NCBI GenBank assembly: GCA_016926555.1
Contig: JAFGOI010000006.1
Location: 1-52,203 of the forward strand
Length of the DNA stretch: 52,203 nucleotides
Source of the DNA: Patescibacteria group bacterium
Lineage (GTDB): Bacteria; Patescibacteriota; WWE3; UBA101185; UBA10185
Direction of reading: 5' to 3'
Within the stretch, counting starts at the first letter, position 1. Every line of letters starts with the position of its first letter. This document shows, piece by piece, positions 2,778-18,525 of the stretch. Made by a program: the position numbers and the translations under genes. A model generated the notes under the pieces. The model was not told the origin of the DNA. It saw only the letters and a list, made by a program, of their open reading frames with translations, and searched no databases.

Positions 2778-4448
2778 TTAGCTTTTGGAAGTGCTATCAC
2801 CGGTGGTTTTTTTTGTTATAGTTGGCTCGGGTTTTTCTATTTTTGGGTGCTTTTTGAGGAATTCCTTGTTCTCTCTTACCAAAAATATGGTGCAATAGAT
2901 AGTTCCATCAGAGTCTTTAAGGTGTCTGGCTTTCAAGAACCCTTCCCTAAGGTATTTTCCTTTTGTTGCAGGGTGAACACCGTGTCGGTCTTTTATTTGC
3001 CATTCGGAAATCCACTGGCCTTCATCGTCGTATTCATGCTTTAGATTTTTAGGTATAACTCCTGCTTCAGCGTTCCTTCTACAATCATCGCAGTAAACCT
3101 CATCCAAAGTCCACCAAATCCCATTTCCCGGCTTATACCTCCTACAGATTGCACATTGGTATGGACCTTCTGAGGGTTCCAAGAAAAATCCCTCCGGCTC
3201 TTTTTCTAATCTTCTTTTTCTGATATTCCTAATAGCATCGTGCTTACCCATCATTCTGGCCAGTTGCACAATGTTGTGATGGGAATATTTTGCATACTGT
3301 TCTGGATCAACTTTTTCTTGGGGTTTCGGAGGCTTTTGTGTTTTAGTAACCAGTTTGACCATGTCTTCTTCCTGTTCGTATCCCTTTAACCTCCCCTGCA
3401 AATACCCAAGTCGGTAGCTGATTCTGTCCATTAAGCGCCAATTAGTGTCTTTTAATGTTTCCTTAATAATTTCCTCTAGCTCCTGAGAGCTTTTCCTGTC
3501 TGTTCTTGTTGAATCGGTGTCTTGCACAGAGAATGATGTGTTTACAAATTGACCTATCTCAGGCTTTTCAAACTCAAGTTTTGCATATCTAGCCTTTTCT
3601 ACCGCTTTCTTGAGTAGTATTTCCAAATCAGGGATGGTTGTTTTCTTAAGTTTCAAGGAATCTGCATACATTTGGGTGTCGTGTTTTTGCATTTCTTCTT
3701 CCTTAACTACTACTGCAACTTCCATGGCTTCCAAAGTTTCTACGTATTCTTTGCCCTCCTTATCCGACAAACAAAACTCATTGCGATATTTTTCTAGCAA
3801 TTCCTTGTCTTTTCTCTTTTCTTCCTCCCATTCCTTTTCCCATTTCTCATGGTCATGTTCTTCTTCTTTTCTGTAACCACACGAGTTGCATTTTGTGACC
3901 CATTTTTTGACTTTTCCCTCTTTTTCTATGGTGTATTCCGCTTCTTTGCCGCATTCTGGGCATAAATAGGGTTTAGATTCCCTTATTTTGCCGTCATCAT
4001 ATATGCCTTCTCGTTTATTGCAATTTGGACACTTTAAAAAGAACAACATTCTTAAAGGCTTGTTATCATCTGTTGTGTGATCAAGGGTTTTGAAGAAGCT
4101 TTCCATTTTAATATTGCAATCGGGACAGTAATAGGAAGGAACAGGGGTATTATCGTATTTATCCTGCATCTCTGTGTCTTTTTGAATCCACTCTTGTATT
4201 GTTCTTTCTTTTTCCTTGTGACTGGAAGCTTTTACGAAAAATAAATGATGATTTAGCATCAAGGAAACATTCCTCCATTTTTCTTTATCAGGTATACCTT
4301 TTAATTCTTTTGCTTCTTTGGATTTTTTATAAACCTCTTGAAACATTCGGATACTATCAAGACAACGGTTTATAGTAGTTAGATCATAACGATCAATATA
4401 GGATTGTTCGGGTTGAAGGTATTCCTTACCTTCTTGATGCTTCGCCAC
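2778..4448 (-). CDS. Uncharacterised 556-aa protein with three zinc-ribbon-like Cys pairs
   Basis: CPDC...CPNC, CPEC...CNSC, CAIC...CDDC; long charged coiled-coil segment. Confidence 0.7.
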   Translation of the reverse strand: MAKHQEGKEYLQPEQSYIDRYDLTTINRCLDSIRMFQEVYKKSKEAKELKGIPDKEKWRNVSLMLNHHLFFVKASSHKEKERTIQEWIQKDTEMQDKYDNTPVPSYYCPDCNIKMESFFKTLDHTTDDNKPLRMLFFLKCPNCNKREGIYDDGKIRESKPYLCPECGKEAEYTIEKEGKVKKWVTKCNSCGYRKEEEHDHEKWEKEWEEEKRKDKELLEKYRNEFCLSDKEGKEYVETLEAMEVAVVVKEEEMQKHDTQMYADSLKLKKTTIPDLEILLKKAVEKARYAKLEFEKPEIGQFVNTSFSVQDTDSTRTDRKSSQELEEIIKETLKDTNWRLMDRISYRLGYLQGRLKGYEQEEDMVKLVTKTQKPPKPQEKVDPEQYAKYSHHNIVQLARMMGKHDAIRNIRKRRLEKEPEGFFLEPSEGPYQCAICRRYKPGNGIWWTLDEVYCDDCRRNAEAGVIPKNLKHEYDDEGQWISEWQIKDRHGVHPATKGKYLREGFLKARHLKDSDGTIYCTIFLVRENKEFLKKHPKIEKPEPTITKKTTGDSTSKS

Positions 4449-12376: not shown

Positions 12377-13702
12377 ATGAACAACCTAAACATAAAAAAA
12401 GTGAAAGTATCTGAGCTTAAACCCTCAGAATACAATCCCAGAAAATGGGACGCGTATAAAGTTGAACAATTAAAGGAAAGCATAGAAAAGTTTGGCTTTG
12501 TTGATCCTTTGATTGTGAATGGAGCCGAAAATAGGAAAAATATCTTGATAGGAGGCCATTTTCGTTATCACCTCGCAAGGCTCCTCAAGTACAAAGAAGT
12601 TCCTGTTGTGTATATAGATATCCCAGATATTGAGAGAGAAAAGGAACTCAATCTGAGATTAAATGCTAATACAGGAGATTGGGATTATAAGCTATTGGCA
12701 GAATTCGATGAGTCTTTTCTTGATTCGGTTGGATTTACAAGCGAAGATTTGGATGAAATCTTTGCGATAGATGAAACTCCCGAGGAATTCGACCTTCGAC
12801 AGGAGCTTGCAAAACTAGATATTAACAATATAGAAATTAAAAAAGGCGATGTTATCCAGCTGGGCGAAAACAGGTTGATGTGTGGGGATTCTACAGTTGA
12901 AAGAGATGTACAAAAGCTTATGGATGGTGAAAAGGCGGATATGTGCTTCACTGACCCACCATACCTTCTCGATTACCTAAAGGGAAAGAAGAAATCAGAG
13001 GGCATTGTAACAGGATTTGGAGCAAAAAGAAATCGAAGGTATCTTGAGACCGATGTTCTACCAGACGATTTTACAGAAAAATGGGTGGCCAACATATCCA
13101 AAATCCAAAAGGAAAACTTCTCAGTGATAATTTATGAGAACTGGAAAAATTTGAGAGTAATTTGGGAGGAAATGGAAAAGTACTGGAAAGTAAGAAATAT
13201 GATCGTATGGCATTTACCCAATAGAACGCAAGGATTTGCTGGTAAACATAGATTTTTTTCAAAGCACGACATTGCAATGGTTGGTACATCAGAATCTTTT
13301 GACCCATCCCTCAATCTCAAACCTGAAGAAGAACTTCTTCAAAATGAATATGAAACAGCATTGTTCGCGATTTCGGGCAGGCCACATTGGGAAAGTTATA
13401 AGAAGGGCAAAAAGTACCAGCCAACAGATTTTATTGAATATGTTGCTTCTGATGAAAAAAGCTCAGGTCAAGGGGTGGTTTTCGGTACCAAACCGATCGA
13501 AATATTAATTCCATACATAAAAGTATTAACAAAGCGAGGAGACCTTATAGTGGAGCCCTTCGGAGGCTCTGGCAGTACGCTGATCGCTTCAGAGAAAATG
13601 AGGAGACGTTGCTACATCATGGAGAAATCCCCCGTTTACGCGGAAGTTATTAAAAAAAGATGGGAAAAGCTCACCCATCAGAAAGGAGTAAAAATATCAT
13701 GA
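12377..13702 (+). CDS. ParB-like N-terminal domain plus site-specific DNA methyltransferase
   Basis: VSELKPSEYNPRKWDAYKVEQLKESIEKFGFVDPLIVN...IGGHFRYHLA (ParB-like); CFTDPPYLLDY and EPFGGSGSTLIASEKMRRRCYIMEKSPVYAEVIKKRWE (MTase). Confidence 0.9.
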   Translation: MNNLNIKKVKVSELKPSEYNPRKWDAYKVEQLKESIEKFGFVDPLIVNGAENRKNILIGGHFRYHLARLLKYKEVPVVYIDIPDIEREKELNLRLNANTGDWDYKLLAEFDESFLDSVGFTSEDLDEIFAIDETPEEFDLRQELAKLDINNIEIKKGDVIQLGENRLMCGDSTVERDVQKLMDGEKADMCFTDPPYLLDYLKGKKKSEGIVTGFGAKRNRRYLETDVLPDDFTEKWVANISKIQKENFSVIIYENWKNLRVIWEEMEKYWKVRNMIVWHLPNRTQGFAGKHRFFSKHDIAMVGTSESFDPSLNLKPEEELLQNEYETALFAISGRPHWESYKKGKKYQPTDFIEYVASDEKSSGQGVVFGTKPIEILIPYIKVLTKRGDLIVEPFGGSGSTLIASEKMRRRCYIMEKSPVYAEVIKKRWEKLTHQKGVKIS

Positions 13703-14106
13703 ATAAAACAATCCAGAAAAGACAACAAAAAGAACGTGAAATCCTACTAGAACATCTTAGGAGAACACCAATAATTCAGTTAGCTTGTGAGAAAGCTGGA
13801 ATATCAAGGGCGACCTATTATCGCTGGAAGAGCAATGATAAAGAGTTTGAAAAACAAGCTAATGAGGCCATTGATGAAGGTGTATCCCTCATGAACGATT
13901 TTGCTGAATCGCAGTTAATTTCTTCAATAAGAGATAAAAACATGACGGCGATAATTTACTGGTTAAAACACAGGCACAAAGCATATTCAACAAGGGTAGA
14001 AATATCGGGAAATATATCTACGATACGTGAAGAACTTACTGAACAGGAAACTCAAATGATTAAGGAGGCCATAAATTTATTTAAGGATGATTATGGAAAT
14101 AAATGA
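13699..14106 (+). CDS. Phage terminase small subunit-like HTH protein
   Basis: IIQLACEKAGISRATYYRWKSNDKEFEKQANEAIDEG; directly upstream of TerL. Start chosen at MNKTIQKRQQ. Confidence 0.75.
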   Translation: MNKTIQKRQQKEREILLEHLRRTPIIQLACEKAGISRATYYRWKSNDKEFEKQANEAIDEGVSLMNDFAESQLISSIRDKNMTAIIYWLKHRHKAYSTRVEISGNISTIREELTEQETQMIKEAINLFKDDYGNK

Positions 14107-15559
14107 AAGAACCCTGCAACAAGTACTCAATGATAGAACTCTACGGGTGAATCTTGCCTACGATAGTTTCGAATGGTTTCTTGTTATCTATTTGAATCAT
14201 CACTTTAGTTATTCTTTTGCTCCATACCATAGAGAGTTAATGAGGATAGTACAAGATCAAGAGATAGAAAGGGCTTTTATTGCTGCTTTTAGATCGAGTG
14301 GAAAAACCACGCTTATTGTTCACGCCGGAATATTATGGTCACTGTTTGGTAAACCGCAGAAAAAATACATCGTTTTAGTTGGTCTTACCAAATCCCAAAT
14401 TGAAGAGCATTTTCACAACCTAAGACGTGAATTAGAAACTAATGAGCTGTTAATAAATGACTTCGGTAGATCGAAGGAACCAATGAGTAAGTGGAGTTCA
14501 GATAAGCTAGAAATACCCTCCCTTGGTGCAACTGTAGTGGCTCGTTCCACAGGAGAAACTGTTAGAGGCGTCAAAGGACTATCAGAAAGGCCGGATCTTA
14601 TTATCTGTGACGATATGGATGACGTAAATTCTACAAGGAGTCTTGATACAAGAGATTGGCTTTTTCATTGGTTTACCAGTGAGATACTGACCCTGGGATT
14701 TGACAATACGAGGGTTATTGTGACAGGAAATATTGTGCATCCTGATTGTTTTCTCGTTCGTATGGAGGAAATGATAAAAGACAAAAAGAAGACAGGAGAG
14801 TTTTTGAAGGTTCCATTTTTTGACTCTAAAGGTAATGCTAATTGGCCCTCAAGATTCCCAACCAAAGAAAGCATACAAAAGCTACAAGATGGGATTTACG
14901 ACCCTCGTGTTTGGAAAAGAGAATATGAACTAATACCAGTAACACTTATGGACCAAGTTATTAAAGAAAACGATATTCGTTACTATGAACAAATTCCAAA
15001 TACAACCTCTAGATATTACGAATACACGCTAATTGCGGTAGATCCTGCAATTAGTGAAAAGGATTCCGCTGACTTTTCTGCCATCGTTTTTGCTGACGTA
15101 TTTAATACAGAAGGTAACTATAAAATATATCTACACTCAAACTATATAAATGAACATTTGGACACACAATCTCTACTTAATAGGATGGAGTATTGTTACA
15201 ACACCAACTTGGGCAAGCGTCCCTTGATATTGATAGAAAACTCGAATTTCCAGGAAATTATAGCTCAGCAGTTAGAGCAAAAAATGCTCAAGGTTGAGAG
15301 AGTTAACCCAAGGGGTGTTAGTAAGATTGATCGTTTTATGTCAGTAAGCAATCTTATAAAGTCAGGTGTGGTTGAATTTCCTAAGGAATTCTCAGGGCAT
15401 CTAAAAGACCAAATATTATATTGCGGAATGACAAAACACGATGATCTCTTAGATGTCTTTGTCTATATATTGCAGTATGTAGTAGAGCATAAAAGACAAG
15501 ACAGTGGTGTTACGTCAGTAAGGTTTATAAGTGTTAAAACCAGATCTTTGTTCAGATAA
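14087..15559 (+). CDS. Phage terminase large subunit
   Basis: Walker A FRSSGKTT, Walker B LIICDDMDD, nuclease motifs AVDPAISEKDSADFSAI...TKHDDLLDVFVYIL. Confidence 0.9.
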   Translation: MIMEINERTLQQVLNDRTLRVNLAYDSFEWFLVIYLNHHFSYSFAPYHRELMRIVQDQEIERAFIAAFRSSGKTTLIVHAGILWSLFGKPQKKYIVLVGLTKSQIEEHFHNLRRELETNELLINDFGRSKEPMSKWSSDKLEIPSLGATVVARSTGETVRGVKGLSERPDLIICDDMDDVNSTRSLDTRDWLFHWFTSEILTLGFDNTRVIVTGNIVHPDCFLVRMEEMIKDKKKTGEFLKVPFFDSKGNANWPSRFPTKESIQKLQDGIYDPRVWKREYELIPVTLMDQVIKENDIRYYEQIPNTTSRYYEYTLIAVDPAISEKDSADFSAIVFADVFNTEGNYKIYLHSNYINEHLDTQSLLNRMEYCYNTNLGKRPLILIENSNFQEIIAQQLEQKMLKVERVNPRGVSKIDRFMSVSNLIKSGVVEFPKEFSGHLKDQILYCGMTKHDDLLDVFVYILQYVVEHKRQDSGVTSVRFISVKTRSLFR

Positions 15560-15597
15560 TCTTATAAGTTTATTCATTTATCTATTCATAAGTTTGC

Positions 15598-15603
15598 TAT
15601 AAT
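15598..15603 (+). promoter_or_regulatory. Extended -10 promoter element (TGcTATAAT) upstream of structured RNA
   Basis: tttgctataat; no convincing -35. Confidence 0.4.
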
Positions 15604-15615
15604 CTAAACATAAAT

Positions 15616-15748
15616 GTTATCAGCGGCGAGTATAACAAAGCACTAGTTCTGTAGTTATTGCAGAACTGAGTATCAAACCCAGAAAGGGGCTACCTTTCCA
15701 AGGGTTTGATGCTTCGCCGCTGATGACTACAGAAGGTAGTCCCTTTCT
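15616..15748 (+). ncRNA. Structured RNA candidate: three-way junction, extra hairpin, potential pseudoknot or alternative helix
   Basis: P1 15616-15629/15714-15727 (14 bp, one G-U); P2 15645-15651/15661-15667; P3 15672-15680/15702-15710 with apical 15682-15687/15693-15698; P4 15725-15730/15736-15741; alternative 16-bp pairing 15681-15696/15733-15748. Confidence 0.65.
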
Positions 15749-15828
15749 TATTGCCTACCTCTAATATACTTTTAAGGCTTTACGAAGCCTTGCATTAAGG
15801 GAACTCTTCTGTCATCCATCAATGTGGT

Positions 15829-16428
15829 ATGTATAAAAGAGTTGAACCCAAAAAACTAACAGGTAAAGAAACATTTAAAAACGCAAACAAAGAATTTTCC
15901 GTTCTTCAATTTTGGCAATTCGCCTTTTCCAATCTCAATTCTAACGTTCTAAGAGGAGATCTAGCGGAATTTTTTATCGAGAATGCCTTAAGGGATGTAG
16001 AACACATAACAATTAAAAACCCCTGGGGAGATTTTGATGTAGTAACAAATGAGGGTACTAAAATAGAGACCAAATGTAGTGCGTTTCTACAAGACTGGGA
16101 CCAGAAGGAACTTTCCAAACCTTTATTTTCAGGTTTGAGAGCCAAGGATTTATATTGGAATTCTGCTGTATCAGATTTCAAAGCTGACTCAGGAAAAGAC
16201 TACAAATCCGATATTTACGTATTTGTTCTACAGAATCATAAGAATCCCGAAACTCTGAATCTTTTAGATATGAATCAATGGGAGTTCTTCGTTTTATCCA
16301 GGGATGAATTAAAAGAGATATCTAAAAATGCATCAAGTGTTTCTCTAGTAAAACTACAAAAGGAAAATGTCGAGCCCATTCACTTTAACGGACTAAGACA
16401 AGCTATATTAAGCAAAGAAAACTTTTGA
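15829..16428 (+). CDS. PD-(D/E)XK nuclease-like protein
   Basis: VLRGDLAEFFIENAL...NPWGDFDVVTNEGTKIETKCSAFLQDWDQ (D...ExK pattern). Confidence 0.6.
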   Translation: MYKRVEPKKLTGKETFKNANKEFSVLQFWQFAFSNLNSNVLRGDLAEFFIENALRDVEHITIKNPWGDFDVVTNEGTKIETKCSAFLQDWDQKELSKPLFSGLRAKDLYWNSAVSDFKADSGKDYKSDIYVFVLQNHKNPETLNLLDMNQWEFFVLSRDELKEISKNASSVSLVKLQKENVEPIHFNGLRQAILSKENF

Positions 16429-16436
16429 TATTTTGC

Positions 16437-16907
16437 TTATTTTTGAACGTTAACCCGTCCACCGATAAAGTAAGCTTTATAAACCTCCTCGTTATTTAAA
16501 AAGATTCCTTCTGTTTGGATGAATTCCTCAATATCACCTTGGCACTCGTTTGTATATTTTAAATTGTTTTCCTCAAATTTTTCGGGCCCTCGATGGATAC
16601 AGTTTCCAGTGGGACCTTCCTTTAAAGCTTTACGTAGAAACGCGTAGATGTCCGAAAAGTTGATTCCTTCTGCAACCTTACCCCAATAAACACATCTAAA
16701 AACGTCTTTTCCATCAAACCAAAGAGTTTCGTTACCAGAGTATGGTTCACCCCCGTAAAATTCGTCTTCATATTTCCAATTCCCCTCATTTCTAGTTAAT
16801 ATCTTTCCGCCCTTGCCATTATCTTCGTACTTGATACTTTCGTCAGCATAGCCCAGTAAGTTAAACTTTCTAAGGGTATTTTTGAGTTCTTGTGCTTGTG
16901 GTCTCAT
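16437..16907 (-). CDS. DUF5680-like protein
   Basis: YEDEFYGGEPYSGNETLWFDGKDVFRCVYWGKV pattern. Confidence 0.6.
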   Translation of the reverse strand: MRPQAQELKNTLRKFNLLGYADESIKYEDNGKGGKILTRNEGNWKYEDEFYGGEPYSGNETLWFDGKDVFRCVYWGKVAEGINFSDIYAFLRKALKEGPTGNCIHRGPEKFEENNLKYTNECQGDIEEFIQTEGIFLNNEEVYKAYFIGGRVNVQK

Positions 16908-16973
16908 ATAAGTTATTGTACATCAAAAGCTGGAGCTGGACTTGTACTCGTTTTTGCGTCATCCATTGTATAG

Positions 16974-18281
16974 ATGACAACAGCAACAAACACCATTAAA
17001 TACTGCCTTTATGCACGAAAATCTTCGGAAAGCGATGAGCGCCAAGCTATGAGTATAGACTCTCAAATCAAGGAAATGACAGACCTCGCTTTAAAGGACC
17101 AATTAGAAGTAGTAGAGATCAAAAAGGAGAGCCACTCTGCTAAAAATTCGGGTACAAGACCACTATTTTTAGAGATGCTTTATGAACTCAATCAAGATAA
17201 ATACAACGGTATCTTGACTTGGGCTCCAGACAGGCTTAGCAGAAATGCAGGTGACTTAGGTTCTCTTGTTGATATTATGGATCGAGGAAAGTTAGCGCAT
17301 ATCAAAACGGCTTCTCAATCTTTTTCTAACAATCCAAACGAAAAGTTCTTACTAATGATTCTTTGTTCCCAGGCTAAACTTGAAAACGATAACAGAGGTT
17401 TAAATGTTAAAAGAGGTATAAGAGCTAAGTGTGAAATGGGATGGAGACCCGCGCCCGCCCCTGTCGGATATTTAAACTATTCCCATCTTGGAACTAAGAA
17501 AGTAATGCTAGATAAAGAAGTTGCCCCTCTAATTAAAGAAATGTTCACGATGGTAGCTAATGGGTGTAGCGGAAGAGATGTAAAAGTTTGGTTAGATAAA
17601 GACGGAAGACTGAAAAAACATACACATAGAAATATACCTCTAAGTATGGTTTATAGAATGCTAAAAAATAGTTTTTACTACGGTGAATTTGAGTATCCAA
17701 CAAATAGCGGGGTTTGGTACAAAGGTTCGCATGACCCGATAATTACACGAGAATTGTTTAAAGAAGTTCAAAAGAAATTGAGTTTTTATACTGAGAATAA
17801 AACAAAAACTAAATGGGGTTCAAAAACCTTTGATTTCAAAGAGATTTTTAAATGCGCTTACTGTGGAGCAAGTGTTGTAGGTGAAGAAAAATTCAAACTA
17901 CTAAAATCAGGAAAGAAGAATAGGTACGTTTACTACCATTGTTCCAAAAAGATTGATCCAAATTGCCCAGAACCTTATGTAAATGAGGTAGACTTGATTG
18001 ATAGATTTATCAGGTTCGTTGAACTACTAGAAACAAGAAGAAGTACAGCCATTGAAATAAATAAAACAATTAAGACTAAAATGAATAAATATAAGGCGTT
18101 CAGAGACCAGATACTAGAACAACAAAGCGTTTCAATTGAGGATAAACCACTTAAATTTGCTGAGTTTTTCAGACATATAGTTTTAAACGGAACTAATGAG
18201 GAAAAACAAGAAATCCTATCGTGCATTAACCAGGCCTTATATCTCCATAACGGAGAAATATTTTCCAATCCTTTAATTTAG
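16974..18281 (+). CDS. Serine recombinase (resolvase/invertase N-terminal, recombinase and zinc-ribbon domains)
   Basis: CLYARKSSESDERQAMSIDSQI; TWAPDRLSRNAGDLG; zinc ribbon FKCAYCGASV...YYHCSKKIDPNCP. Confidence 0.95.
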   Translation: MTTATNTIKYCLYARKSSESDERQAMSIDSQIKEMTDLALKDQLEVVEIKKESHSAKNSGTRPLFLEMLYELNQDKYNGILTWAPDRLSRNAGDLGSLVDIMDRGKLAHIKTASQSFSNNPNEKFLLMILCSQAKLENDNRGLNVKRGIRAKCEMGWRPAPAPVGYLNYSHLGTKKVMLDKEVAPLIKEMFTMVANGCSGRDVKVWLDKDGRLKKHTHRNIPLSMVYRMLKNSFYYGEFEYPTNSGVWYKGSHDPIITRELFKEVQKKLSFYTENKTKTKWGSKTFDFKEIFKCAYCGASVVGEEKFKLLKSGKKNRYVYYHCSKKIDPNCPEPYVNEVDLIDRFIRFVELLETRRSTAIEINKTIKTKMNKYKAFRDQILEQQSVSIEDKPLKFAEFFRHIVLNGTNEEKQEILSCINQALYLHNGEIFSNPLI

Positions 18282-18332
18282 CTAAATATAGAACAGGGAC
18301 TCGAACTTAAATACATTGTTATAGCAATAAAA

Positions 18333-18346
18333 AACCTTATAAGGTT
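18333..18346. repeat. Perfect 14-bp palindrome aaccttataaggtt, 52 bp past the recombinase stop
   Basis: Read directly. Confidence 0.6.
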
Positions 18347-18451
18347 AATGTTTTACAGAAAAATTGCGGTTCGGATTTAAGGTTTTTAAGAGAGGTTTTA
18401 TCAAGCTGTTAAGAGGTATTAGAGGCTTCATGGTCACTTGCGTGCCCATTC

Positions 18452-18525
18452 TGGCTGGGGGACAGGGATTCGAACCCCAATTTCTGCGTCCAGAGCGCAA
18501 CGTCCTACCATTAGACGATCCCCCA
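18452..18525 (-). tRNA. tRNA-Gln (anticodon CTG), CCA encoded
   Basis: Minus strand TGGGGGATCGTCTAATGGTAGGACGTTGCGCTCTGGACGCAGAAATTGGGGTTCGAATCCCTGTCCCCCAGCCA folds as cloverleaf. Confidence 0.93.

Follow-up and report, generated by a model that had tools for sequence, protein, structure and literature searches.

A structured RNA ahead of cargo genes on serine-recombinase mobile elements of Patescibacteria, with features of an attenuating leader

Transcription-attenuating riboswitches and leaders lie upstream of a gene and have a folded domain that overlaps a terminator-like helix. The phi29 pRNA is an example of an RNA found near packaging genes. In Patescibacteria the closest system is LOOT RNA, reportedly described in Weinberg 2017. 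It is typed by Rfam as an sRNA (RF03000, gathering score 46.4 bits) and was found in 78 of the 362 Patescibacteria genomes that we sampled. Mobile elements also have RNAs tied to premature transcription termination and complementary pairing, such as the P4 CI RNA and IsrK of Gifsy-1 (PMC4825925). No literature linking structured RNAs with the Candidate Phyla Radiation or Patescibacteria was found in our search.

The window, which is the whole stretch of 52,203 nucleotides analysed here, carries a structured RNA at 15,616-15,749 (+), with a single occurrence in its own genome. The minimum free energy of positions 15605-15760 (+) is -67.3 kcal/mol (z -9.3), and 200 shuffled sequences average -34.6 +/- 3.5; on the (-) strand of the segment the z is -4.8. 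A first-pass annotation had placed a promoter and four hairpins in this region, and all of them were found where it had drawn them. The -10 box TATAAT (15598-15603, +) has TTTGC directly before it, and the TGC just upstream resembles an extended -10. The enclosing helix P1 (5' arm 15618-15629, 3' arm 15714-15725, both +) has up to 14 pairs in the window, 12 of which are kept in relatives. P2 is a hairpin of the predicted fold (15645-15667, +; arms 15645-15651 and 15661-15667) that varies in sequence and length across the alignment and is missing from some relatives. P3 (5' arm 15670-15680, 3' arm 15702-15712, both +) carries in its apical loop the 5' strand of a further helix, T (AGAAAGGGGCTACCTT, 15681-15696, +). 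This strand pairs with the 3' tail at 15733-15748 (+), which ends in the U-rich run CCCTTTCTT and is terminator-like. The annotation had noticed this complementarity of 16 bp with one G-U, which is correct, and had suspected an alternative pairing; all 16 copies preserve the pairing, which is a competing long-range helix. The fourth hairpin, GACTAC-AGAAG-GTAGTC (15725-15741, +), is present in the window and is not conserved, being absent or weak in many relatives. A terminator formed by this hairpin was therefore dropped and, if the RNA terminates, T is the conserved candidate. In Rfam 15 no family attains the gathering score at the RNA locus, and the matches up to E=10 include none of relevance, in line with the earlier failure to recognise a known class.

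The covariance-model search for homologues yielded further copies, with compensatory changes in independent relatives. There are 15 of them, giving 16 in all, and they come from two viral contigs and from genomes of other Patescibacteria. BLAST of 27 genomes of the family returned partial matches in which the P1 sequences differed yet were still complementary. The first covariance model was made from four copies (the window, G017 and the viral contigs L013 and L014) and was later rebuilt from 13; pattern scans were also used. The hosts that have names are WWE3, Chisholmbacteria, Collierbacteria and a Paceibacterota MAG. The RNA is rare, with 5 of the 27 genomes of the family and six true cases among 380 in the phylum sample, and in all such counts the copies G021a, G021b and G023 are closely related or in one genome. 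A model match in L111, the would-be seventh case of the phylum sample, was discarded on reading, as were pattern matches in L116 and L123-L125. The 41.8-kb phage contig L015 was also rejected as a copy, since the P1/P3 match is absent on the strand carrying GGGGCTACC...GGTAGTCCC. There, at 3500-3700 (-), GGGGCTACCTTTCC and GGTAGTCCCTTTCTT lie about 40 nt apart in an intergenic region behind an unrelated strong hairpin, and the pair is likely due to chance or a bare terminator. In one copy (G021c; L104 2472-2595 (-)) the 5' arms of both P1 and P3 are gone, and the T helix and the tail are retained; the next gene downstream of it has membrane-like segments.

In the 13-copy alignment, 20 of 36 pairs are changed on both sides (10 of 12 in P1, 7 of 11 in P3 and 3 of 13 in T) and 96% of cells pair. 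None of 500 shuffles attains these values which, together with the fold energy, bears out the earlier remark that so much complementarity is unlikely by chance. Because P1 and P3, and not T, guided the fitting of this alignment, T provides the cleaner test of covariation. A single T pair shows U-A, A-U, C-G, G-C and U-G among the copies, and in G491 one T pair is absent on both strands together. Three copies found afterwards with model R2 keep P1, P3 and T, with new compensatory changes at formerly constant pairs (P1 11/113, G-C to A-U; T 84/138, C-G to U-A). Every one of the 16 copies has a T helix of 14-19 bp and a spacer of 28-35 nt, and in all 16 the loop matches the tail of the same copy better than it does, on average, the tails of the others. 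At columns 83/139 of alignment A6 a G-U wobble, within an otherwise covarying T helix, is kept in 14 of 15 tabulated copies. Over all helices, G-U cells number 44 versus a single A-C cell. Since G-U cells become mismatches on the opposite strand or in its folded DNA, function is assigned to the (+) RNA strand. These results confirm that the window encodes a real structured RNA and support its reading as one of a previously uncatalogued class.

Upstream of the RNA lie a ParB-N / N6-N4 DNA methylase fusion (12377-13702, +), which is a conserved partner of this terminase, a terminase small subunit-like gene (13660-14106, +) and the terminase large subunit TerL (14087-15559, +; PHROG 38, E 9e-69). 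The RNA follows TerL in 4 of the 16 copies, behind a cassette of ParB-methylase, TerS and TerL, and adjoins no TerL in the other 12. Thus the terminase link is incidental, which differs from the position of the phi29 pRNA. The proximity to serine recombinases, and sometimes to TerL, would suit a role at the DNA level, as attachment site, attC-like folded recombination site or packaging signal, or a role as a terminase-linked packaging RNA. However, the excess of G-U over A-C points to selection on one RNA strand, a promoter is present and most copies stand apart from TerL, so this explanation appears very improbable. The packaging RNA was dropped on the lack of terminase at most copies, and the DNA recombination site, largely refuted, on the strand asymmetry.

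The placement between terminase and nuclease genes in the first-pass annotation holds for the terminase; the downstream nuclease is plausible by eye. This gene (15829-16428, +) encodes a protein of 199 aa, possibly a PD-(D/E)XK nuclease, an assignment that is unproven; the protein has no match in Pfam, PHROG, PADLOC or NCBIfam. A homologue with 55% identity exists in G289, with a LOOT RNA immediately upstream, and the N-terminus of what is apparently the same family stands behind the RNA copy of L013. Next in the window is a large serine recombinase (16974-18281, +), the only PF07508 protein found in its genome, and 170 bp beyond it a tRNA-Gln (18452-18525, -). The other border of the element would be marked by a repeat of 13 bases from the tRNA-Gln end, which was looked for and not found. 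Of 12 copies, 9 have a large serine recombinase within 10 kb, versus 1.4 expected (from rounded genome sizes). It is the only one found in the genomes of the window, G050, G183 and G491, and for three copies (the window, G050 and the Paceibacterota copy) its end coincides with a tRNA gene or is close to one. The data tie the RNA to serine-recombinase mobile elements, where it stands upstream of cargo genes, and not to terminase. Beside the window region 12377-18525, the short viral-labelled contigs L016, L018, L020 and L022-L024 have TerL and then directly a large serine recombinase, an adjacency that suggests terminase-bearing mobile elements or satellites of Patescibacteria. A PD-Lambda-4-like defence protein (L112 4792-8580 (-)) is encoded divergently from the RNA in G050.

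In every copy the next gene is near and runs in the same direction as the RNA (background 0.60, P about 3e-4; ORF calls were mechanical). The products of these genes are mostly small and, judged by eye, apparently membrane-anchored or secreted; in G183 an Mrr-type restriction enzyme is encoded downstream of the RNA. A perfect TATAAT is found 9-15 nt ahead of the first aligned base in 10 of 16 copies, where 0.064 per copy is expected by chance at the same composition. The tails end in a U-rich run, which is broken in some copies (G050 GCUUUUCG, G020 UUGUUG). In G021a, G021b and G023 the ATG directly follows the U-run, and there the RNA must be a 5' leader. Comparison of the sequences establishes the RNA together with its strand, helices, U-run and place upstream of a co-directional gene. 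Distances of 0 nt between tail and start codon, in these three copies, could indicate that tail pairing hides the ribosome-binding region and controls translation. ORFs of about 34-47 codons also begin at the U-run in L003, L013 and L014, ending at or beside the start of the main downstream gene. Nevertheless, the main start codon can lie anywhere between 0 and about 140 nt from the tail, and several genes possess a Shine-Dalgarno sequence of their own considerably further downstream, which makes control of translation distinctly improbable.

Transcription attenuation of mobile-element cargo by a leader RNA is the reading that best fits these features, and we favour it with somewhat better than even confidence. 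A terminator-like helix followed by a U-run and competing with another helix is present at the sequence level. The covariation in P1, P3 and T, the strand bias, the -10 box, the co-directional next gene and the loop-to-tail helix with U-run in LOOT RNAs of the same slots also speak for attenuation. A helix of 14-19 bp within a loop of about 20 nt is sterically incompatible with a closed P3, so that T and P3 should compete. By crude estimates the two states lie close in energy, in most copies no more than about 6 kcal/mol apart and in G491 up to ~12; for the T state that keeps P1 the estimate is an approximate addition in which a pseudoknot penalty of +8 kcal/mol was assumed. Competition at such near-equal energies favours attenuation. 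The promoter would start a leader RNA ~5-10 nt ahead of P1, which would fold into P1, the variable P2 and P3, with the G-rich strand in the P3 apical loop able to pair with the 3' tail. When so paired, the RNA resembles an intrinsic terminator whose loop would contain the 3' arms of P3 and P1. We infer that T acts as a terminator and that the RNA switches between two states. With P1, P2 and P3 formed the tail would be free and transcription would read through into the cargo gene, and with T formed it would stop, leaving an RNA of ~135 nt. The balance of the two states would set the expression of the cargo gene on the serine-recombinase element. Because almost no unpaired bases are conserved, our guess for the signal is a protein or RNA from the element or from an incoming element. 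Against attenuation stand the unusual terminator loop of ~33 nt, the interrupted U-runs, the rough energy estimate and the diversity of the downstream genes, as most known attenuators serve one pathway.

The folded domain that overlaps a terminator-like helix is a feature common to attenuating riboswitches and leaders, and a multi-helix domain in this position of a leader could also represent a ligand-binding riboswitch with the T helix as its expression platform. We consider this improbable, if slightly less so than control of translation. Hardly any unpaired bases are conserved outside the T strands and no conserved ligand pocket was apparent; P2 is variable or missing, and the downstream genes are diverse and non-metabolic.

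A stronger competitor, still unlikely in our judgement, is a free-standing sRNA acting in trans, for instance in element immunity or in the control of another element. T would then be a constitutive terminator or part of a stable pseudoknot, and the gene would simply come next in a compact element. The conservation of the RNA although the downstream gene changes, its own promoter and U-run and the Rfam typing of LOOT as sRNA fit such a role. The P4 CI RNA and IsrK are possible analogues, as prophage RNAs that arise from or cause premature termination (PMC4825925). No relationship in sequence or structure to the window RNA was detected for either of them, and the P4 CI RNA acts as an antisense RNA. 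The co-directional gene in all copies, the start codon abutting the U-run in three of them and the same gene families behind LOOT and the window RNA argue against a role in trans.

The comparison with LOOT reveals both differences and similarities. Under the LOOT model, for which 46.4 bits are needed, the window has no match up to E=10 and the loci of nine relatives have none up to E=5. The 5' hairpin of LOOT, UGCCUAAaC ... GCAUGG, is absent from the alignment of window-RNA copies, as are its two GAAA-capped hairpins, in whose place the window RNA has only the 3' arm of P1; instead of these three hairpins it has the enclosing P1. For these reasons the window RNA was not filed as LOOT. Nevertheless, both occur in Patescibacteria and have ~120 nt and a central long hairpin. 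As in the window RNA, the apical part of this hairpin in LOOT pairs with a tail, over 12-17 bp and followed by a U-run. The tail lies on the 3' side, where the Rfam model stops short of it and of the U-run, as seen in the 30 loci analysed (L136-L165). In 29 of these 30 the pairing of the loop with its own tail surpasses the average obtained when tails are swapped, and in 27 the next ORF is co-directional. The many cross-covariations in the published analysis of LOOT (PMC7657543) are compatible with a competing helix. LOOT also shares neighbours with the window RNA: TerL upstream in L149 and, downstream, a homologue of the 199-aa protein in L133, a thermonuclease in four cases and a DUF6804-type protein in two. 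A serine recombinase lies within 10 kb of LOOT in 27 of 40 cases versus 3.4 expected, again from rounded genome sizes, and in G023 the contig with a copy of the window RNA also carries a LOOT. Through the slot and the loop-to-tail helix that it has in common with LOOT, the window RNA is connected, at least in part, to RNAs already known.

LOOT, a structured RNA widespread in Patescibacteria, is joined by the window RNA as a second, differently folded one that occupies the same slots. The part that they have in common is the 3' helix missing from the Rfam model, the U-run and the place upstream of cargo near serine recombinases. We tentatively propose, with less than even confidence, that the two may form one broader unrecognised group of cis-acting switches on serine-recombinase cargo (surface proteins, nucleases) across Patescibacteria, which would use a loop-to-tail terminator switch to sense a signal of the element or of a competing one. 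Thus the orphan LOOT acquires a testable hypothesis on how mobile elements of ultra-small bacteria may control their cargo.
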